Source of the DNA: Anaerolineae bacterium
Lineage (GTDB): Bacteria > Chloroflexota > Anaerolineae > Caldilineales > Caldilineaceae
Reading direction: 5' to 3'
Assembly: GCA_030432295.1 (NCBI GenBank)
Contig: JAUIHI010000003.1
Span: 310,001 to 374,000 of the forward strand
Length of the DNA stretch: 64,000 nucleotides
Under the pieces are notes generated by a model. That model ran no database searches. It was not told where the DNA came from and was given only the letters and a program-made list of their open reading frames with translations. The translations under genes were made by a program, and so were the position numbers. Positions 28,530 through 54,050 of the stretch are shown here, one piece after another. Numbering within the stretch: the first letter of the stretch is position 1; every line of letters starts with the position of its first letter.

Positions 28530-28611
<82 letters not shown>

Positions 28612-28617
28612 ACCACA

Positions 28618-28662
28618 ACATATAGTAGTTGGGTCAGCGTACATGCACTACATATAGTGGTT
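28618..28662. promoter_or_regulatory. possible integrase arm-type sites, left end
   Basis: ACATATAGTAGTT (28618-28630) and ACATATAGTGGTT (28650-28662) are direct repeats 32 bp apart, between attL and the integrase start. An exact inverted copy of the first lies near attR at 49339-49351. Confidence 0.6.
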
Positions 28663-28690
28663 CCAATCCTTACGGAAAGGGAGCACTAAA

Positions 28691-29596
28691 ATGACCCCGC
28701 TTACACGAAAAGCAGCGCCTTCAGTTTTGGCCTGCTTTTCTGTTTTTCTGCTCGACACAAAATCACGTCGTCTCTCCCCTAAATCTATCCGTTTCTATGA
28801 CCAACAACTCCGCTACTTTCTGGATTGGCTAGAGGAAAATGGAGTCTTCCCAGACAGTGTATCCATCACCGAACTGGACCGTAATGACATACGTCAATAT
28901 CTCTCCGACCGCACGGACAGCGGACTGGCTGCGGCTTCGGTAGACGCCTGCTATCGGGCATTGAACGCTTTCTGCAATTTCTGTGTGGCCGAAGGCTGGT
29001 TGACTGTATCGCCGATGAGCAACATCCGGCGACCCCGCAAAGACCAGAAGATTCCCCCCGCTTTCAGCAAAGACGAAATCGAACATCTTTTGCGTAACTG
29101 TGATACCAGTCGGGATAGGGCACTTGTGCTATTCCTGACTGACACCGGCTGTCGTGCCCAGGAGATGCTCAATCTGAATATAGAGGATGTGGTTCTCTCC
29201 ACCGGCTCTGTGAACATCCTACGTGGCAAAGGAGCGAAACAGCGATACGCCTTTATTGGCTTTCGCACACGCAAACTATTGAGTCTTTATCTGGCCGAGA
29301 GAGGATCAGTGGAGTCGAAAGACCCTCTCTTTATCATCGAACACGGCACACGTCTCCAATACGACGGTCTCAAATCCCTCATGCACCGTTTGGAGAAAGC
29401 ATCGGGTCTGGAATGTTACGCCCACAAATTCCGCCACACGATGGCCCGTCTATGTCTGCGAGCAGGGATGAATATCTACGCTCTCCAAGCCTTGATGGGG
29501 CACAGTAGCCTGGAAATCCTCAAAGTCTATGCCCGTGTGGAGGGAGTTGATGTAGCCGCTGCCCATCAACAGTACGGGGCTGTTGACAGTTTGTAG
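28691..29596 (+). CDS. tyrosine recombinase/integrase
   Basis: This is a site-specific recombinase of 301 residues. The N-terminal SAM-like core-binding domain (about 10-105) includes SPKSIRFYDQQLRYFLDWLE. The catalytic domain carries Arg155 (TGCRAQE), the Lys beta-hairpin GKGAKQRY, His245/Arg248 in HKFRHT, His271 in MGHSS and the nucleophile Tyr280 in LKVYARV. All six residues expected of an active enzyme are visible. It sits 80 bp inside attL and points into the element, the usual place for an integrase that inserts into a tRNA 3' end. Confidence 0.96.
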   Translation: MTPLTRKAAPSVLACFSVFLLDTKSRRLSPKSIRFYDQQLRYFLDWLEENGVFPDSVSITELDRNDIRQYLSDRTDSGLAAASVDACYRALNAFCNFCVAEGWLTVSPMSNIRRPRKDQKIPPAFSKDEIEHLLRNCDTSRDRALVLFLTDTGCRAQEMLNLNIEDVVLSTGSVNILRGKGAKQRYAFIGFRTRKLLSLYLAERGSVESKDPLFIIEHGTRLQYDGLKSLMHRLEKASGLECYAHKFRHTMARLCLRAGMNIYALQALMGHSSLEILKVYARVEGVDVAAAHQQYGAVDSL

Positions 29597-41021: not shown

Positions 41022-41732
41022 ATGAACGCAGCACAAGCGATCAAGAAGATTGTACATCTACGCGCGAACCCGACTCCTTATCAGTTTCGCCAAGTAGCGA
41101 ATGTGCTATTGCAGCACATGAGAGAGGATGAAGACTTCTCGGATATCGTTGAGCGTGTATTTGCATCTCCGCCTGTTGAACGGGCAAACAACTGGTTGGA
41201 ATTTATCGAGCTTCCATACGCCGCAGAATTTGTCCATGACGACATCGGCCAACACGAATGGCGAATCAGTATTGGCACTGTGGCTGGTGATGTAATCGCT
41301 TCGAGGGTTCTTTCGTGTACAGTAACCGACTTGTCCGGTGGCGATGTGCGGATTGTCCTTGCCCGTCATAGGCCGGAAGCTATCCCACTGTTCGAAGCGC
41401 TATCGGCTCTGATTCAAGTGAATTGGCCGAAGGGTGAGTTAGTGGGCGGTGATGAAGACGTTTATCCGCAAGAGGAATATGTCAAAACCACACAAGAAGA
41501 TTCTACAGTCAGTGATATGAATAAGCCGTGGATGAAGATTCCCGACCTAAACTGGCACAGGAAAGCTCTTATGCTTTGGTGGCAAGGGAATACGTCAGAT
41601 GAAATTGCCAAAGTAATACATGTATCCAAAAAGACCATTGATAACACATTGGCTGAGTATCGCAAGAATCCAGAATACGGACCGACAATCATTCCCACTG
41701 CGGCGGAATTGAAGAGGCTCGGACACCGCTAG
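41022..41732 (+). CDS. protein with C-terminal HTH, possible regulator
   Basis: The protein is 236 residues. The N-terminal 150 residues are soluble, mixed alpha/beta and unrecognised (FIELPYAAEFVHDD, EWRISIGTVAGDV). After an acidic linker with DVYPQEEY, the last 65 residues look like a sigma-4/LuxR-type helix-turn-helix (RKALMLWWQGNTSDEIAKVI then HVSKKTIDNTLAEYRK). AGGA precedes the ATG. It stands at the boundary between the cargo genes and the replication genes, so it may regulate either side. Confidence 0.65.
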   Translation: MNAAQAIKKIVHLRANPTPYQFRQVANVLLQHMREDEDFSDIVERVFASPPVERANNWLEFIELPYAAEFVHDDIGQHEWRISIGTVAGDVIASRVLSCTVTDLSGGDVRIVLARHRPEAIPLFEALSALIQVNWPKGELVGGDEDVYPQEEYVKTTQEDSTVSDMNKPWMKIPDLNWHRKALMLWWQGNTSDEIAKVIHVSKKTIDNTLAEYRKNPEYGPTIIPTAAELKRLGHR

Positions 41733-41883: not shown

Positions 41884-42081
41884 ATGAAATCGAACGAAAG
41901 AACGGCAGAGGAGAAGTTCGCGTTTTTGCAACAGTTCATGGCAGTACAAAACAAAAGCCACCGACCGGGACAGCCGCCAAGCAAATCCGGTCAATGGCTA
42001 CAATCAATCACGCCCACAAGGGCACAATCTAACAGAAAGTATAGCACGAAATATGGACAATGTACATCAATTTCCCGATGA
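41884..42081 (+). CDS. small basic protein upstream of the RepA-like gene
   Basis: The product is 65 residues, starting MKSNERTAEEKFAFLQQFMA. AAAGGAG lies directly before the ATG at 41884, so this start is preferred to the one at 41743. It is rich in Lys, Arg, Ser and Gln. Its end overlaps the next gene by 29 bp in another frame. The function is unknown; co-translation with the RepA-like gene is likely. Confidence 0.55.
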   Translation: MKSNERTAEEKFAFLQQFMAVQNKSHRPGQPPSKSGQWLQSITPTRAQSNRKYSTKYGQCTSISR

Positions 42082-43105
42082 AACAATCTTCCCGACAGGA
42101 GGGCTACCCATGCCCTTCCAAAACGAAGGCGAAAATGCCGACTTGCCCCCACTCACATCCTGGGCAGACCTGGATGTCCCTGATATCACCTGGGATTGGG
42201 AACCCTGGCTTGCCAAGGGATTTATGACCATCCTTGCAGGATTTCCTGGCACTGGCAAATCTATCTTCCTGCTGGACGCTATCTGTCGTTCTTACATTAC
42301 TGGTCGCACATGGCCGGACGGACAGCCCTATACAGGAGAAATGGGCAAAGTGCTCTGGCTGGAAACCGAAGGGGCCAACCTTCTCAATATCAACCGAGCG
42401 CGAGCCTTTGGCCTGCCACTGGAAGATATTATCTGTCTCTCAATCGACCCCTTTGATACTGTCTCGCTAGGGAACGATGCGCAGAAAAAGGCCATCGAAG
42501 AACTTGCCCAACATCCTGACATCCGTGTCATCATTTTTGACAGCCTCTCTGGGGGACACGGCGCAGACGAAAACAGCAGTACAGTAATGATTCCTGTGGT
42601 CAAGTGGCTGGCAGAGTTGGCAGCGAAATCCAACAAGCCTGTGATCCCAACCCACCACCTGAACAAGGGGACTGCCCCGGCGAACCAGGATATTACGTTG
42701 AACCGATTGCGGGGTTCTACGGCCATAGGCCAGTTTGCCCGCACAGTCTGGGGCATCAGCCAACCATCTCTGGAGAACCCTGACCTCAAGAAGGTATATG
42801 TAGTCAAGACGAATCTGGGCACCTTCCCCAAGCCCATCGGCTTCACTATCACCGATTCGGGTGTTGTCTCAACGGAACTGCCTTCCTCGCCAGACCAGAG
42901 CGACACGCAGGAGAACCGGGAGAAAGTGTCAAACTTCCTAACCGAGTTGCTCAAAGACGGAGCGCGACCCTCCATAGAGGTAAGCATTGCGCTCAAAAAG
43001 GCGGGACTTTCTTGGGATGTCGCTAATCGTGTCAAGAAGCGTCTGGGCATCGCTTCCGAAAAACGGGGAGACAACTGGGTCTGGTTAGTGAAGCAAGATA
43101 GCTAA
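42053..43105 (+). CDS. RepA-like hexameric AAA/RecA-fold ATPase
   Basis: The protein is 350 residues. Walker A is GFPGTGKS at residues 63-70 (Lys69) and Walker B is VIIFDSLSGG. A HHLNKGTA segment is followed by LRGSTAIGQFARTVWGI, as in the RSF1010 RepA / phage helicase group. The C-terminal 75 residues look like a winged helix (RPSIEVSIALKKAGLSWDVANRVKKRLG). It probably unwinds the element's own origin. The primase gene lies just downstream. Confidence 0.85.
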   Translation: MDNVHQFPDETIFPTGGLPMPFQNEGENADLPPLTSWADLDVPDITWDWEPWLAKGFMTILAGFPGTGKSIFLLDAICRSYITGRTWPDGQPYTGEMGKVLWLETEGANLLNINRARAFGLPLEDIICLSIDPFDTVSLGNDAQKKAIEELAQHPDIRVIIFDSLSGGHGADENSSTVMIPVVKWLAELAAKSNKPVIPTHHLNKGTAPANQDITLNRLRGSTAIGQFARTVWGISQPSLENPDLKKVYVVKTNLGTFPKPIGFTITDSGVVSTELPSSPDQSDTQENREKVSNFLTELLKDGARPSIEVSIALKKAGLSWDVANRVKKRLGIASEKRGDNWVWLVKQDS

Positions 43106-43121: not shown

Positions 43122-43235
43122 CCTTGCGATCTTGCATTCTTACCATCTTGCTATCTTCTCTCCATTCAACTACATATAGGTAGTAGTAAGCTAGGGTGGG
43201 GAAGGTGGCAAGGTGGCAAGATAGCAAGGTTGTAG
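43122..43235. repeat. octamer runs in inverse orientation
   Basis: TCTTGCNN-like 8-nt words (43122-43161) are followed by inverse words GGTGGCAA, GGTGGCAA, GATAGCAA and GGTTGTAG (43204-43235). The block fills the gap between the RepA-like and primase genes and may fold on itself. ACTACATATAGG near 43170 resembles the arm-type motif. Confidence 0.6.
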
Positions 43236-43270
43236 GGTGGGTACCTGCGCAATCATCAACAAGGAGAAGC

Positions 43271-44299
43271 ATGCAAATGTTCGACACACAAACAATCAAA
43301 GCCAATGCGGATATGTTCGCACTGGTGGAAAGCAATCTGGGACAGTGCCTCAGACACAACGGCCACTCACACCAATGGCTCTGCCCTTTTCACGGAGAAA
43401 AGACACCGAGCTTTACTGTCTATCCAGAGACACGGAGTTGGTACTGTTACGGCTGTCGCAAAGGCGGTGATGTCATCCAGTGGGTTCAGCAATACAAAGG
43501 ACTCGACTTCAAAGAGTCATGCAGATACATCCAACAATTCGTGCGAAGTCAGCCAGCCATATCGATTCCTCGGCTACCAACAGTCAAGAAGCAAAGTGTG
43601 CTGAAAGGAGATACCTGGCAAAGCCGAGCCTCGGCCCTGGTCGTTGAGAGCCAAAAACGTCTCTGGAAAGATAGTGTCGCAACGGACGCCCTGGCCTATC
43701 TACATGAGCGAGGATTCAGTGACGAGACCATACGCAATGCCCAACTTGGCTACAATATCGGTAAGAAGGAGCAGCGCACGGATTGGGGTCTCCCCCTCGA
43801 TAGCTACGCTGATTACGTCTGGGTTGACAATGGAATAGTGATTCCCTTCCTGGTCAATGGCATCCCACAATGGATAACCATTCGTAAATTCCCCAAAGTA
43901 GAGAACGTCGCTGGGAAGGAGTATAGGTACAAAGTCCTGACCGGTTCAACCTACACCCTCTACAACGGCGACCTTCTCGACCCGACTCAACCGGCCATCC
44001 TGACCGAAGGCGTCTTCGATGCACTCAGTGTCCAGCAAGAGGCAGGAGACTTGATAGTGTCCGTTGCCACGAGTAGCACGGGTGGAGTCAGAACCCCAGA
44101 ATGGATTGACAAACTGGCTACCCTGCCACTGGTTCTGGTTGCCTACGACGCTGACAAACCGGGAGACGAAGCCAGTGAGTTCTGGTTAGAGAAATTACCC
44201 AATGCCAGACGCTTGCGCCCCTTACTCGATGACCCAAATGCCATGCTCAAAGCGGGTATGGACATTCGTCAGTGGGTTCAAAATGGACTGAACGGATAG
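43271..44299 (+). CDS. DnaG-like primase (CHC2 zinc finger and Toprim)
   Basis: The protein is 342 residues. The zinc ligands Cys38, His41, Cys59 and Cys62 (WLCPFHGEKTPSF and WYCYGCRKGGDV) mark the CHC2 domain. A Toprim-like region follows with LTEGVFDALSVQ and VAYDADKPGDEAS. The ATG at 43271 has AAGGAG seven bases upstream. It probably synthesises primers for the element's replication with the RepA-like ATPase. No helicase-interaction C-terminal domain as in full DnaG is seen. Confidence 0.9.
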   Translation: MQMFDTQTIKANADMFALVESNLGQCLRHNGHSHQWLCPFHGEKTPSFTVYPETRSWYCYGCRKGGDVIQWVQQYKGLDFKESCRYIQQFVRSQPAISIPRLPTVKKQSVLKGDTWQSRASALVVESQKRLWKDSVATDALAYLHERGFSDETIRNAQLGYNIGKKEQRTDWGLPLDSYADYVWVDNGIVIPFLVNGIPQWITIRKFPKVENVAGKEYRYKVLTGSTYTLYNGDLLDPTQPAILTEGVFDALSVQQEAGDLIVSVATSSTGGVRTPEWIDKLATLPLVLVAYDADKPGDEASEFWLEKLPNARRLRPLLDDPNAMLKAGMDIRQWVQNGLNG

Positions 44300-44309
44300 C
44301 AGTCTCAAA

Positions 44310-44343
44310 ATAGGATAGGCGTATTCCCCAATGCGTCTATCCT
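44310..44343 (+). terminator. hairpin after the primase
   Basis: TAGGATAG (44310-44317) pairs with CTATCCTA (44336-44343), followed by AAAATTCTCC. It is a moderate terminator candidate behind the primase stop. Confidence 0.5.
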
Positions 44344-44468
44344 AAAATTCTCCTTATCCAGCCTGTTTACACAACCTCCCCATGGTACAGTCCCTCCTTG
44401 CTTTTGGGTCTCCGGCCAAGAAGCCTCTATAGACATCCCGTTTGAGTGTGAGAGAAAGTGACATCCCC

Positions 44469-45246
44469 ATTCGTACCTTGGCTAGTCCAACACCCTCAGT
44501 TATTCAACTAGCTTAGATGTGTAGTGCTACATGTATAATTTCCATATCACATTTGGGCTACCCTCTAGCCTCGTCACAACCAAATTTGTACCTTGGCCGA
44601 CAGGCATACCCTTCCCCAGCGGGAATCCAGATGGGAAAATACGCATACTTTTCGTCTCTCTTTTCACCTCTGAAAGCACCCACCTTCCCCAGCGATTCCC
44701 CCTATTCGTATCCCTTGACCGATAGAGACATCCGAACTGAGCAGTTGTCCATACCACATGTACGAATAGCTAAAATCCCTCTTTCATAATCTTGTATTGT
44801 CCACCCCAGGAGTTCCCCCTATTCGTATTCCTTGACCGATAGAATCCCCTTGCCCAGCCGTCATCTGCCCTGACATATACGAATGCTCTGGTTCCTCTCC
44901 GTCCCATCTGGAAGCATACTCTCCGTCTGCGTTGTCCCGATTCGTGTTCCTTTCCCAGTAGAAGCCCCCTTGCCCCGCAGGTATCCACGCTGGCCTGTAC
45001 GAATCATTGTTGGCATTGTCATCTTTGAAACCACACTTCTCCTGACAACCCCAATCATCCAGTATTCGTATCCCTTACCCAAAGGGACACACTTCACCAA
45101 AGCAACCCACCCAGCCGTGCAAATACGCTCCATTCTACATCTAACCGTTCGCGATCACTTCCGCCTCGAAATCCTTATCCCTATTCGTATCGATGGCCCA
45201 ACGAGACACCGAATGAAGTAGATCGTCCCTTGCCATGTACAAATAT
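44469..45246. repeat. array of seven ~118-bp units with inverted ATTCGTA/TACGAAT ends
   Basis: ATTCGTA-like left ends occur at 44469, 44584 (ATTTGTA), 44704, 44821, 44940, 45064 and 45183, spaced 115-124 bp. Each is followed after 50-60 bases by a right end such as TGTACGAAT, ATATACGAAT or TGTACAAAT. The bodies are diverged but share CCCTTGACCGATAGA-like and CCTTGCCC-like blocks. Neither strand carries a convincing gene. The array fills most of the 1.29-kb gap between primase and the SWIM protein. It could be iterons of a replication origin, or structured RNA. Confidence 0.75.
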
Positions 45247-45530
45247 CTCCTTTCACTTTTTCTAAAAGCCATCTGTCCCTCATCAGGCACAATGTTTTGA
45301 CCCCTGGTGTGAGAGAGGGTCATATATGAGATAGGAAAAGGTCAAAAGTGAACATAGGGGGTGTCGATACCCCTTCGACAGAACATCACCTTCGACCTGG
45401 ACCCTCTATGCAATACAGAGCCATTCAAGCACGAGGAGGAATCTGCCTTTGACCCAAGTACAGTGAAGTAGTTCCCTTGAAGCCAGACCGTTGAACCAGA
45501 AAGTCACAACCCTATATCCGTCTACGTACA

Positions 45531-45561
45531 AGCCTCGACCCCATCGGTCGGGGCTTTTTTT
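45531..45561 (+). terminator. strong intrinsic terminator upstream of the SWIM gene
   Basis: AGCCTCGACC (45531-45540) pairs with GGTCGGGGCT (45546-45555) with one G-T pair, a 5-nt loop and then a T7 run. It ends 30 bases before the next ATG, although no protein gene precedes it for 1.2 kb. It therefore ends a non-coding transcript or works as an attenuator. Confidence 0.85.
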
Positions 45562-45590
45562 GTTGCCCACAATCCACAAGGAGAAATCCC

Positions 45591-46481
45591 ATGCAATCCG
45601 TCCTGCACCTGAACAACCTTCTCCACTACGCAGCCCGTACCAAACACCCGGTCAGCCTCTACGTGCGTCCCACAGGCTGTCCGTCCACCAGCCAGGGTAT
45701 CCCCGTCGATGACGGTCTCTATCAGGTTACAGGCTATGTCATGGGTGATGAACCCAGACAAGCCTACGACTATACCATCAACGGTTGGCTCTCTCCCTTT
45801 TGGCGTGTAATGGAAGCAACCGGATGGCGAGTCGCTTCCCGACACAAAGCAATTCAGGGCGAACGCCGTTGGTCCCTTGCCCGCATGGATGAGCTTCTAC
45901 TGCCCGGACTACCCACCCGTGACCAACTACTCGACTATGTGGAGAAGATTCGACCACTGGCCGGAGAACGGGCCGAGCGAGGCTTGGAGATTGCCACATC
46001 GGGCAAAGTCCACAAGTTGACGCCCCTCTCCGATGGCAAGGACAGATGGGAAGTAGATGGCACGGAGACGGGCTGTGGAGCCTACACAGTCAGTATCCAG
46101 GGCCGCTATTGCACCTGTCCCGATGCAACCAGTGGCGCAGCCCCCCGTTGGTTCAATGCCCCTCTCTGCAAACACCGTCTGGCTGTCATGTATATCACCC
46201 GCTGGCAAGAGGACCAACAGCGTGCCCAGGAGACAGCCCAGGTCAACAACCTTCCCTGTACCCCTCCTACCCCGGCTTACCCCACCGATTACATCACCAT
46301 CACACCACCTGTCCGCTCCAACGAGGGTTGGCGTTGGTCACAGGTACGCCACAGTGGAGCCTATACCCGCTATTCCCAAGAGGAGTATCCCAACCAGGAA
46401 GTTGTCATGCGGGTAGCCCGCTCCATTGCCGACTGTAAAGACCTGCCTCTCTACCTCAACGGTTTCACCCCTTCTGCGTGA
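45591..46481 (+). CDS. SWIM-type zinc-finger protein
   Basis: The protein is 296 residues. The SWIM motif CxC...CxH is visible: Cys174 and Cys176 in RYCTCPD, then Cys193 and His195 in LCKHRLAV. SWIM domains bind DNA or proteins. The rest is unrecognised; the region WLSPFWRVMEATGWRV and the helical RDQLLDYVEKIRPL precede the finger. AAGGAG lies upstream of the ATG at 45591. Proteins of this kind occur in integrative elements with RadC and ArdC (general knowledge). Confidence 0.8.
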   Translation: MQSVLHLNNLLHYAARTKHPVSLYVRPTGCPSTSQGIPVDDGLYQVTGYVMGDEPRQAYDYTINGWLSPFWRVMEATGWRVASRHKAIQGERRWSLARMDELLLPGLPTRDQLLDYVEKIRPLAGERAERGLEIATSGKVHKLTPLSDGKDRWEVDGTETGCGAYTVSIQGRYCTCPDATSGAAPRWFNAPLCKHRLAVMYITRWQEDQQRAQETAQVNNLPCTPPTPAYPTDYITITPPVRSNEGWRWSQVRHSGAYTRYSQEEYPNQEVVMRVARSIADCKDLPLYLNGFTPSA

Positions 46482-46557
46482 GTACAAGTACCACATACGA
46501 ATATCTGTGTCTTTGTTCCATCCACCCTATCGTTCAATCCTAAACAGGAGACTTCCC

Positions 46558-47043
46558 ATGTCCGAGCACACCAAACCCCAGAGCTTTTCCGAGTTGTATC
46601 CAGGCAAGTATCTGAAAGCCGACGACTTGCAAGGCAAGAGCTACCTGCTTCGCATTGTCTCCGTCAGTGTGGAGAAGTTGCGCCAGTTCGATGGCACCCA
46701 GGCATGGAAGGTGGTGCTCACCTTCGACAAGGCCCAGAAGTTGCTCATCCTCAACAAGACCCAGTGCAAGGCATTGACCGACATCACAGGCAGCGAACAG
46801 TTTCAGGGATGGCAGGGCATCACAGTCAAACTCTCGCCGGTTACGGCCCAGAATGGCAAGCCGACCATTCACATTGCCAAGGTACGCATGGCTGAACCTC
46901 TGTCCAAGCCAGAGGAGAAAGCCAGTCCAGTAGTTACCTTCACCGACAACTCAGAAGCCAGCCTCGAAGTACCGACAGCCCCCGTCCTTCCCCTCTCATC
47001 CAACGGTACGCATAGCAACCCCGCTACAGCCTACCGGGACTGA
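46558..47043 (+). CDS. small element protein, possibly ssDNA-binding
   Basis: The protein is 161 residues, starting MSEHTKPQSFSELYPGKYLK with CAGGAG upstream of the ATG at 46558. The core (about 20-115) is beta-rich: YLLRIVSVSVEKL, AWKVVLTFDKAQKLLILN, WQGITVKLSPVTAQNGKPTIH. This could be an OB-like fold. The C-terminal 45 residues are low-complexity (Pro/Ser/Thr/Asn). No family is recognised with certainty. Confidence 0.65.
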   Translation: MSEHTKPQSFSELYPGKYLKADDLQGKSYLLRIVSVSVEKLRQFDGTQAWKVVLTFDKAQKLLILNKTQCKALTDITGSEQFQGWQGITVKLSPVTAQNGKPTIHIAKVRMAEPLSKPEEKASPVVTFTDNSEASLEVPTAPVLPLSSNGTHSNPATAYRD

Positions 47044-47161
47044 ATCTCCTGGCCTTCTGTACAAATGACTTCTCTCTTTTCTACATTCAGGCCCCTTCTG
47101 TCTGTCTGACTCCAAGAAATCGCTACCAATTCTCTCTCAACCCGAAAGGATAGTTCCACCC

Positions 47162-47464
47162 ATGCTACTCAACAGCGTCAGCATCACCTATGGCCGCAAG
47201 GTCAATCTCGGCGACTACAACAACGCCAACATCGAAGTCACCATCGGCGCAGATGTCGAACTGGGCGACGACCTCCACGAGGTCATGCAGGAGCTTTGGA
47301 CGATGGCAAAAGCCAACGTGCGTGCCCAGGTTCTCCCTCTGCTGGCTAAAGGAAAGGAGACATCTGACACACCACTGGGCTTGAGCAACGGTCAACCCAA
47401 TGGAATCACCACCCTTGGTACACCTACCGTTGGCATCACGACCAACGGTAACGGTCACAGCTAA
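47162..47464 (+). CDS. small element protein, unknown
   Basis: The product is 100 residues, starting MLLNSVSITYGRKVNLGDYN. The first 65 residues look folded (ANIEVTIGADVELGDDLHEV, MQELWTMAKANVRAQVLPLL). The rest is a Gly/Thr/Asn-rich tail. AAAGGA lies upstream. Small proteins with this N-terminal pattern are common next to ssDNA-binding-type genes in mobile elements (inference from memory). Confidence 0.6.
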   Translation: MLLNSVSITYGRKVNLGDYNNANIEVTIGADVELGDDLHEVMQELWTMAKANVRAQVLPLLAKGKETSDTPLGLSNGQPNGITTLGTPTVGITTNGNGHS

Positions 47465-47571
47465 TCGTCTTTCCCTGTTTCTATCCGAACCCACAGCCAC
47501 AAAATATATATATAAGCCCTCAATGGTATCAACCCATTGGGGGCTTCTCATTTCCAGGAGACCAGAATCCC

Positions 47572-48300
47572 ATGTCCACCATCCAATACCCTCTCTTTGT
47601 CCTGCCCAGCGAACGGGAATCACAACCCCTCACCATTCGTGAACTACCCTTCACCGACCAGCCGTGTAATCGACTGCGCTACGCCGGTTCTGCTTCTCTC
47701 TCCTTGCGTGAACTGTTGGCCCTGCTCATCGGTGGCAACAATGCCCTGGCTGTAGCTGAGAATATTCTGCGTACCGCCCACAGTGCATCTGAGATAGCCT
47801 GTCTCTCCTTCCACGAGTTGACCTGTATCCACGGCGTCGGTCCCACCAGCGCAGCCCGTATCCAGGTCGCTTTTGCCCTGGCCCAACGTATCCAGTTCGA
47901 CAATCGCCAGGAACTTCCCCAGATTCACAACCCCGCCGACATCGCCAATTTGCTCATGTTGGAGATGGGCTTGCTCGATCACGAACAGTTGCGTGTGGTC
48001 CTGCTCGACACCAGAAACCGGGTGCAGGAAATTGTCCTGCTCTACAAGGGTTCGTTGAATACGGCTGTTGTTCGTGTGGGGGAAGTCTTCAAGGAAGCAT
48101 TACGACGCAACGTGGCTTCGATTGTACTGGTGCATAACCACCCATCCACGGACCCTACTCCATCCCCAGAGGATGTACGTCTGACTGAGAAAGTTGTGGA
48201 GGCTGGCAAGCTGCTCAATATCGACGTACTTGATCATCTGGTCATCTGCCACAACCGCTTTGTGTCACTCAAAGAGCGAGGTCTTGGCTTCCGCAGCTAG
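47572..48300 (+). CDS. radC: RadC-family JAB-domain protein
   Basis: The protein is 242 residues. An N-terminal helix-hairpin-helix region (LSFHELTCIHGVGPTSAARI) is followed by the MPN/JAB core. The metal-binding signature HNHPSTDPTPSPED starts at His188, and downstream are DVLDHLVICHNRFVSLKERG. RadC proteins are frequent on mobile elements; their reaction is not firmly known. CCAGGAGACC lies upstream of the ATG. Confidence 0.93.
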   Translation: MSTIQYPLFVLPSERESQPLTIRELPFTDQPCNRLRYAGSASLSLRELLALLIGGNNALAVAENILRTAHSASEIACLSFHELTCIHGVGPTSAARIQVAFALAQRIQFDNRQELPQIHNPADIANLLMLEMGLLDHEQLRVVLLDTRNRVQEIVLLYKGSLNTAVVRVGEVFKEALRRNVASIVLVHNHPSTDPTPSPEDVRLTEKVVEAGKLLNIDVLDHLVICHNRFVSLKERGLGFRS

Positions 48301-49247: not shown

Positions 49248-49338
49248 ACCCGACTGGGTAAGGCTTTTCTAGCCAAAAATCACCGTCTGTGATACCATAT
49301 TTTTAGCTTTTCAACCCCGATGACACGAAAATCGGCTG

Positions 49339-49351
49339 AACTACTATATGT
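49339..49351 (-). promoter_or_regulatory. inverted copy of the left arm-type motif
   Basis: AACTACTATATGT is the exact reverse complement of ACATATAGTAGTT at 28618-28630. It lies about 36 bp inside attR, as expected for a paired integrase arm site. Confidence 0.6.
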
Positions 49352-49386
49352 AGTGGTGTGTAAACTCCTAAAGCACTATATCTTGT

Positions 49387-49468
<82 letters not shown>

Positions 49469-51930: not shown

Positions 51931-53192
51931 TGACTCCATTCAAACAGAACATCCCATCGGGATGGAAGCTCGCAACCATTGACGAAGTTGTCACACTCAA
52001 ATCAGGCAGTACACCACTACGAGCCAAACAGGAAGCCTATTTCGACGCTGGGACAATTCCGTGGGTCAAAACAATGGACCTAACCAATGGTCCAATCTTG
52101 GAAACAGATGAGAAAATCACAGAATTGGCGCTTCGAGAATCAAGTTGTCCGATGCTAAAGCCCGGAACAGTTCTCGTGGCGATGTATGGCGGATTCAATC
52201 AGATTGGGCGCACAGGGTTGATGACATTTCCTGGCACTATCAATCAGGCCATTTCAGCGCTCATGCCAAACAAAGACGTACTTGACTCAGGCTACCTGTT
52301 GAATTGGTTGAATTGCAATGTGATGAGTTGGAGGCGGTTGGCGGCGAGCAGTCGTAAAGACCCAAACATTACTCGAAGTGACGTAGCAGGCTTCCCTGTA
52401 CTCCTCCCACCCCTGCCCGAACAGCGCAAGATAGCCCAAATCCTGGGGACGTGGGACGAGGCCATCGCCACCACGGAGAAGCTCATCGCCGCCCTGGAAC
52501 GGCGCAAGCAGGGGTTGATGCAGCGCTTGTTGACGGGTCAGGTGCGCTTTGGGGAGTTTGTTGAATCTGAAGATTATCAAGAGACGCGCTATGGTTTTCT
52601 TCCCGGTGACTGGCGACTTGCTGAGATTCAGTCGATTGGCAAAGTCAATAAAGAAAACGCTGACAAAGACCCGAACAGGGAATGGTTCTACATTGACCTT
52701 TCATCCGTCGAAAACGGTACCATTGATTTTCCCCTCAGTCGGATTCGATTTGAAGAATTACCCTCTCGAGCTCAACGAGTTTTACATCGCGGCGATGTGT
52801 TGATGGCAACGGTTCGGCCCAATTTGCTGGGTTACGGGCTTTGTGATTTTGAACCTGTAGATACGCTTTGTTCGACTGGCTTTGCACTGATCTCTCCGAT
52901 AGACTTGGATGATGCGTCCTTTATTTACTATAGCTTGTACGGTGCGACAGTTCAGGGCCAGATTCACGGAATGGTGACTGGTTCAAGTTATCCCGCTATC
53001 AATTCGACAGAAGTTATGCAATTGAGAATCTTCTACCCGAATAGTAAAGTAGAAAGAATGAAAATCGCCAACACTCTTCAAAATGTTGATGGAGAAATGA
53101 AGGCACTGCGTCGCTATAAGAATCGGTTGGAGCTACAGAAAAAAGGGTTGATGCAACGCCTGCTCACGGGGCAGGTGAGGGTGGCGGGGTAG
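51930..53192 (+). CDS. hsdS: type I restriction-modification specificity subunit HsdS
   Basis: The protein is 420 residues with two target-recognition domains. TRD1 is about residues 5-160 (IPSGWKLATIDEVVTLKSGS, RSDVAGFPVLLPPLPEQRKIA). The central spacer helix is AALERRKQGLMQRLLTGQVRF, TRD2 is about 215-370, and the C-terminal helix repeats the spacer (LELQKKGLMQRLLTGQVRVAG). Both TRDs are AT-richer than the spacers, as expected for modules exchanged between strains. Translation starts at the ATG overlapping the hsdM stop. The last 60 bases of the gene are the source of the tandem copies that follow. Confidence 0.95.
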   Translation: MTPFKQNIPSGWKLATIDEVVTLKSGSTPLRAKQEAYFDAGTIPWVKTMDLTNGPILETDEKITELALRESSCPMLKPGTVLVAMYGGFNQIGRTGLMTFPGTINQAISALMPNKDVLDSGYLLNWLNCNVMSWRRLAASSRKDPNITRSDVAGFPVLLPPLPEQRKIAQILGTWDEAIATTEKLIAALERRKQGLMQRLLTGQVRFGEFVESEDYQETRYGFLPGDWRLAEIQSIGKVNKENADKDPNREWFYIDLSSVENGTIDFPLSRIRFEELPSRAQRVLHRGDVLMATVRPNLLGYGLCDFEPVDTLCSTGFALISPIDLDDASFIYYSLYGATVQGQIHGMVTGSSYPAINSTEVMQLRIFYPNSKVERMKIANTLQNVDGEMKALRRYKNRLELQKKGLMQRLLTGQVRVAG

Positions 53193-54050
53193 GTAGCCTT
53201 CCGGGAAGGGGCCGGGTGATTGAGGGGATAAGAAAGTTGGTGTGGCCTCTTCCCGGAAGGGGGATACGAGTCATCTCTGCCCGTCCGAGAAAAAAGGGAT
53301 TGATGCAATGGCTGCTGACGGGCAGGTGTGGGTGGCGGGGTAGGCGACCTTCCGGGAAGAGGCCAGGCGATTGAGGGAATAAGAAAGTTGGTGTGGCCTC
53401 TTCCCGGAAGGATGGAGACGAGACATCTCCGCCAGTCCGGGGAAAATGGTTTGGGGCAATGGCTGCTGACGGGCAGGTGCGGGTGGCGGAGTAGATGGCC
53501 TTCCGGGAAGAGGCCAGGCGATTGAGGGAATAAGAAAGTTGGTGTGGCCTCTTCCCGGAAGGTGGAAGACGAGACATCTCTGCCCGTCCGAGGAAAAAGG
53601 GATTGATGCAACGCCTGCTCACGGGGCAGGTGCGGGTGGCGGGGAAGGTGGAAGACGAGACATCTGCGCCAGTCCGGGGAAAATGGTTTGGGGCAATGGC
53701 TGCTGACGGGCAGGTGTGGGTGGCGGGGTAGGCGACCTTCCGGGAAGAGGCCAGGCGATTGAGGGGATAGGAAAGCTGGTGTGGCCGCATCCCGGAAGGA
53801 AAGACGAGACATCTCCGCCAGTTCGGAGAATTGGGGTTGACGAAACGGCGGATGTCGGGCAGGTGCGGTTGGTGGGGTAGATGGCCTTCAGGGAAGGGGC
53901 CAGGCGATTGAGGGAATCCGTGTGTAATTGTGGCCCCTTCCCGGAAGGTGGAAGACGAGACATCTGCGCCAGTCCGGGGAAAATGGTTTGGGGCAATGGC
54001 TGCTGACGGGCAGGTGTGGGTGGCGGGGTAGGTGGCCTCCCGGGAAGGGG
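53193..54050. repeat. tandem REP/BIME array with captured hsdS 3' ends
   Basis: Units of about 151 bp each combine a 64-bp BIME with a decayed copy of the end of hsdS (GGGATTGATGCAACGCCTGC-like, GGGCAGGTGCGGGTGGCG, GGGTAG). Complete BIMEs lie at 53197-53260, 53348-53411, 53499-53562, 53736-53799 and 53885-53948, and a half unit at 54036-54050. One unit near 53600-53700 lacks its BIME. The frames in the captured pieces are broken, so they are not expressed as protein. Confidence 0.88.

Follow-up and report, generated by a model that had tools for sequence, protein, structure and literature searches.

The element and its genes

The window (the whole 64-kb stretch of DNA that was analysed) carries an integrative element in a Caldilineaceae-type genome of the Chloroflexota. 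Its main features, in order along the sequence, are:

28530-49468, no strand assigned: integrative element of about 20.9 kb, bounded by 82-bp direct repeats
28530-28611 and 49387-49468: the 82-bp direct repeats, which contain tRNA-Lys(CTT)
28691-29596: tyrosine integrase, near the left direct repeat
41022-41732: HTH protein, a candidate binder of the array
42053-43105, + strand: RepA/DnaB-like helicase (AAA_25)
43123-43229, no strand assigned: cluster of CTTGC/GCAAG short iterons, six copies in two opposed groups
43196-44299, + strand: DnaG-type primase (CHC2 zinc ribbon, Toprim), which may actually begin further in, at about 43268
44469-45246, no strand assigned: alternating ATTCGTA array, non-coding, period about 118 bp
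44704-44767, no strand assigned: unit 3 of the array, ATTCGTA...TACGAAT
44821-44884, no strand assigned: unit 4 of the array, ATTCGTAT...ATACGAAT, with 8-bp perfect arms
45343-45356, + strand: box CAAAAGTGAACATA, ahead of the SWIM gene
45530-45563, + strand: terminator-like hairpin and T-run, directly before the SWIM gene
45591-46481, + strand: SWIM zinc-finger protein, the first gene past the array and the marker of three sister elements

Elsewhere the element encodes an HKD/SNF2 helicase, a type IIG restriction enzyme, RadC, ArdC and defence genes. The array is placed between the primase gene and the downstream SWIM-RadC-ArdC operon. Among the element proteins scanned, several match no family; there was no Pfam match to ParA or ParB, and no relaxase was recognised. 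Words of the ACTACATATAGT type are found near both ends of the element (28611-28670 and 49330-49385) and once in the gap between helicase and primase (43165-43190), and are possible integrase arm sites. Further along the window, at 53137-54050, there are two abutting ~150-bp tandem-repeat arrays, which begin within the terminal part of a gene resembling a type I restriction specificity gene.

Composition and spacing of the array

Within the array the word ATTCGTA is present in seven exact copies, rising to 11 when one mismatch is allowed, and its orientation flips at steps of 55-66 bp (about 58 bp) along some 780 bp. The left ends start at 44469, 44584 (ATTTGTA), 44704, 44821, 44940 (ATTCGTG), 45064 and 45183, giving successive intervals of 115, 120, 117, 119, 124 and 119 bp. 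Inverted ends start at 44640 (one mismatch), 44761, 44878, 44998 and 45238 (one mismatch), the distance between starts being 55-58 bp from left to right end and 60-66 bp from right end to the next left end. The earlier note had described seven units, each closed by an inverted end. All seven left ends are present, but a recognisable right end is found in only five or six units: that of unit 6 (ATACGC, at about 45122) is degraded, and unit 1 has no credible one. The period in the same orientation, about 118 bp, is close to eleven helical turns, but with a spread of 115-124 bp there is no need to assume strict helical phasing.

The regularity is real, with word counts and periodicity above those of every shuffle. 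In the 64-kb window ATTCGTA or its complement occurs 14 times against 3.1 expected (none of 100 shuffles had as many), and most of these copies fall inside the array. Between 44300 and 45330 the commonest 7-mer has eight occurrences, the maximum in shuffled sequence being six (0/500), and the self-match at lag 117/118 scores 44, the shuffle maximum being 19 (0/1000). The unit bodies have a mean pairwise identity of 47%, whereas the left word is conserved at about 90% or more at most positions. The top strand of the array is G-poor, with a GC skew of -0.34 (0.6% of windows of equal length are as extreme).

The spacings modulo 3 are 1, 0, 0, 2, 1 and 2, so that no frame stays open from one end of the array to the other, and only short ORFs cross it; a coding function is not supported, in agreement with the earlier note, which saw no credible protein frame. 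Other readings were also set aside. Integron attC sites do not fit, as a core motif is missing and the units have nothing like a cassette between them (judged by eye). A MITE does not fit, as the exact word pair is found in the host genome at the array locus only, and nor does a CRISPR, as the bodies diverge and no cas genes were seen. A search of the DNA of 60 relatives with the array as query matched only the array itself, and no known element of similar design was found in the open-access literature searched.

The array in sister elements

Relatives of the SWIM protein were sought in the family, the class (396 genomes), the phylum (400), genome contigs, viral contigs, plasmids and phages. 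In all of these sets, the only full-length relatives are in two further elements, and are 48-52% identical. One, here called G005 (locus L007, MAG CHL8), is from another species of the same genus, and the other, G020 (locus L006, MAG CHL9), is from the same family. There is a tRNA-Arg gene near the G005 element and a tRNA-Leu gene near the G020 element, each on the element's own contig, and these are presumably the insertion sites.

The first 790 bp of the G005 contig contain 13 copies of TACCGA/TCGGTA (0/500 shuffles), which lie upstream of the SWIM gene and reach into its leader. The best lag, found independently, is 114 (0/1000 shuffles), the array period is about 114-117 bp, and the distances from word to inverse are 54-60 bp, with additional copies of the word besides. 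G005 thus has an array of the same layout in the same place as in the window, but made from a different word. This is the key new observation of the present analysis. By inspection the two words may nevertheless be related (top-strand CCTATTCGTATCC compared with CCTATTCGGTAC, at L007:504). The G005 contig stops at or just past the array, so that one of only two arrays is truncated, and neither helicase nor primase was found in the G005 assembly.

G020 has the same gene order and keeps the helicase, primase and SWIM genes, but the corresponding 500-bp gap contains no array (its score is equalled or exceeded in 97 of 1000 shuffles). The array is therefore probably not essential to this family of elements.

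Two other features are common to all three elements. The box ahead of the SWIM gene is found in each, with small differences (comparing the three sequences by eye), as is a sequence similar to the terminator-like hairpin, although about one such terminator-like site would be expected by chance in the region. No promoter-like site was found. The box and hairpin, at 45343-45563, could possibly form an attenuated leader. In addition, the top strand is C-rich from the end of the primase gene to RadC (44300-48000 in the window) in all three, the richness peaking at third codon positions in most genes. Together these shared features would allow a role in regulation or transfer.

Further Anaerolineae loci were collected from searches with the primase and with a 161-aa protein. 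Several carry short iterons, and none has a comparable array apart from the ambiguous L046, from another family. Upstream of the primase at this locus, copies of a 21-bp motif, TGAGACAGTTGATTCTTGAGA, in the two orientations are separated by about 120 bp; read in reverse (160-2440), the locus has about 2 kb of repeats and then an AT-rich stretch before the primase gene. With its step of about 120 bp it is a possible third case of an alternating array. However, its periods of 171 and 240 bp are both divisible by three and the repeats are spanned by a 503-aa frame, so that it may be coding, and it is not counted as a third case. Four loci (L044, L045, L049 and L050) have ParA-like sequences near the primase, recognised by sequence only. 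At L066 (5835-6003) a palindrome, CGGATCAAATGATCCG, is present in six copies, most of them 26 bp from the next, ahead of a gene that may encode a tyrosine recombinase; the set may be iteron- or centromere-like.

The gap between helicase and primase

The CTTGC/GCAAG cluster in this gap is stronger than in any of 1000 shuffles, and equivalent clusters of short iterons are found in the matching gaps of four relatives (G020, L040, L043 and L048). The words in G020 and the three more distant Anaerolineae elements include TGCACT, GTGACA and ATTGTCA, so that the gaps make up a series of likely origins in which the word changes between relatives. Similar clusters lie at L068 and L069 just 3' of a large gene resembling a replication protein (putative). 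In SaPI elements the origin is a set of short iterons that follows immediately after the helicase gene, and for SCCmec a putative origin lies downstream of the helicase operon (PMC7581432). By analogy, the cluster at 43123-43229 is the likelier replication origin, in preference to the array. Given that the gap has its own iterons, in the SaPI arrangement, the array is more likely to be an additional cis element.

Possible function of the array

The earlier note offered two readings of the array, an origin with unusually long iterons or a tandem set of structured RNAs, and both have lost ground. A replication origin with iterons of very long period, bound by an initiator of the element, is now rather improbable. 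The array does have the iteron-origin feature of many copies of one short word in non-coding sequence beside replication genes, and it adjoins the gene for the primase. In all elements that are readable on both sides, there is a sharp change of top-strand GC skew at the array gap; L046, with its inverted motif beside an AT-rich stretch, also speaks for it. Against this, the helicase-primase gap has its own iterons, in the window and in relatives, and G020 has no array. No AT-rich stretch adjoins the array in the window (GC is 47-50% in 500-bp bins over the array, and none was seen by eye). Its words alternate at 55-66 bp instead of forming direct repeats at one or two helical turns, a description which the gap cluster fits. 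As for structured RNAs, the arms of units 3-5 could pair, and the whole array has a folding z of about -2 on either strand, as expected from repeated inverted words. The individual units, however, fold like shuffled sequence (z from -2.0 to +0.7), Rfam has no match at the array, and when the arms of six units are compared, no pair has changed on both sides, while three have changed on one side only and three show mismatches only. We regard this explanation as very improbable, and equally so the suggestion that the array is no more than functionless decayed duplications. The low identity of the bodies and the degraded first and last units would agree with decay, but the word has been kept while the rest diverged, and an equal layout recurs with another word in a second species.

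Two further roles can be considered. The array might be an operator array or leader that controls the SWIM operon together with the CAAAAGTGAACATA box and terminator. The presence of box and terminator-like sequence just before the SWIM ATG in three elements is in its favour. We think this unlikely all the same, since an operator would not need as many as a dozen sites over 780 bp, no promoter-like site was found, and box and terminator are kept in G020 and so do not depend on the array. A role in transfer or entry, as an oriT-like or leading-region site, is a shade less probable still. Here the SWIM, RadC and ArdC proteins (with an annealase in G020) would protect incoming single-stranded DNA, and the C-rich top strand from the array gap through RadC in three elements is in keeping with this. 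For some hosts, conjugation depends on the presence of the R388 ArdC in the recipient cells (PMC7213743), and anti-defence genes cluster in the leading regions of plasmids (PMC11541004); both count for such a role. However, no relaxase was recognised among the proteins scanned, no nic-like site was identified, and G020 lacks the array.

The best explanation is that the array is a cis-acting element bound by an element-specific DNA-binding protein, with a role in maintenance, replication control or segregation, or operon regulation. Judging from the sequence, we consider this about evenly balanced between right and wrong. An element-encoded protein would recognise the 7-8-bp word ATTCGTA(T) and fill about a dozen such words, flipped every ~58 bp, to form a regular nucleoprotein complex over ~780 bp, from the primase gene to the SWIM-RadC-ArdC operon. 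Such a complex would most likely help to maintain the excised element, through replication control or segregation, and might in addition determine how the downstream operon is expressed. We infer that the binder is encoded by the element because sister elements from a single genus use different words: the word has been swapped as a whole while spacing and alternation are kept, as expected if each array is bound by a protein specific to its element. Candidates are the SWIM protein and the HTH protein; the predicted structure of the former (mean pLDDT 57) is too uncertain for a structure search. The role is suggested by the position of the array, which places maintenance or replication control first, and operon regulation or entry after it.

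In support of protein binding, we note the conserved word within diverged bodies, the lack of a coding frame, and the lack of compensatory changes in the arms. The earlier note had taken identical arms as the mark of protein binding, and this is what the arms show; its proposal of a regular array of protein-binding type beside helicase and primase genes in a mobile element is likewise supported. Against protein binding are the lack of an array in G020, the lack of a partner of ParA type in the set of element proteins examined, and the small number of arrays, two in all. Homogenisation of the array, instead of selection, could equally keep the copies of the word alike.

It is conceivable, though we think it unlikely, that integrative elements of Chloroflexota carry here a new type of cis element, with near-strict alternation at ~58 bp and a word that changes in concert with an element-specific binder. 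If so, the array would possibly provide element-specific replication, segregation or transfer without ParA. To our knowledge, the replication and maintenance of such elements in Chloroflexota have hardly been studied. The sister elements, with equal layout and different words, offer a natural specificity swap for the binder and its recognition code, and could show whether a regular alternating array serves maintenance or transfer in an element with no evident ParA.

Comparison with known systems

The element resembles SaPI and SCCmec in being an integrative element that encodes helicase or primase and has repeated words near those genes. The role of their short-iteron origins is here better filled by the CTTGC cluster, and the array differs from them in word, spacing and position. 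The centromere of plasmid F, sopC/parS, consists of twelve repeats of 43 bp, and ParB binds a 16-bp inverted repeat that is present in each of them (PMC9178275). This centromere resembles the window array in being a tandem non-coding array of short inverted words in a mobile replicon, and an array of inverted-repeat sites, as in ParABS systems, is present here. The array differs in its period of 118 bp as compared to 43 bp, in having inverted words about 57 bp apart and no compact dimer site, and in that no ParA or ParB was recognised among the element proteins examined. The crr region of phage P4 consists of two ~120-bp direct repeats with short iterons, which are bound by the alpha helicase-primase. 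It has in common with the array the ~120-bp repeats, the short words, the cis action and an element with helicase-primase; in P4 ori and crr share an iteron word, whereas here the word of the array differs from the gap iterons. As a set of repeated protein-binding sites of iteron or centromere type in a mobile replicon, the array would thus be of a kind already known, with unusual spacing and alternation.
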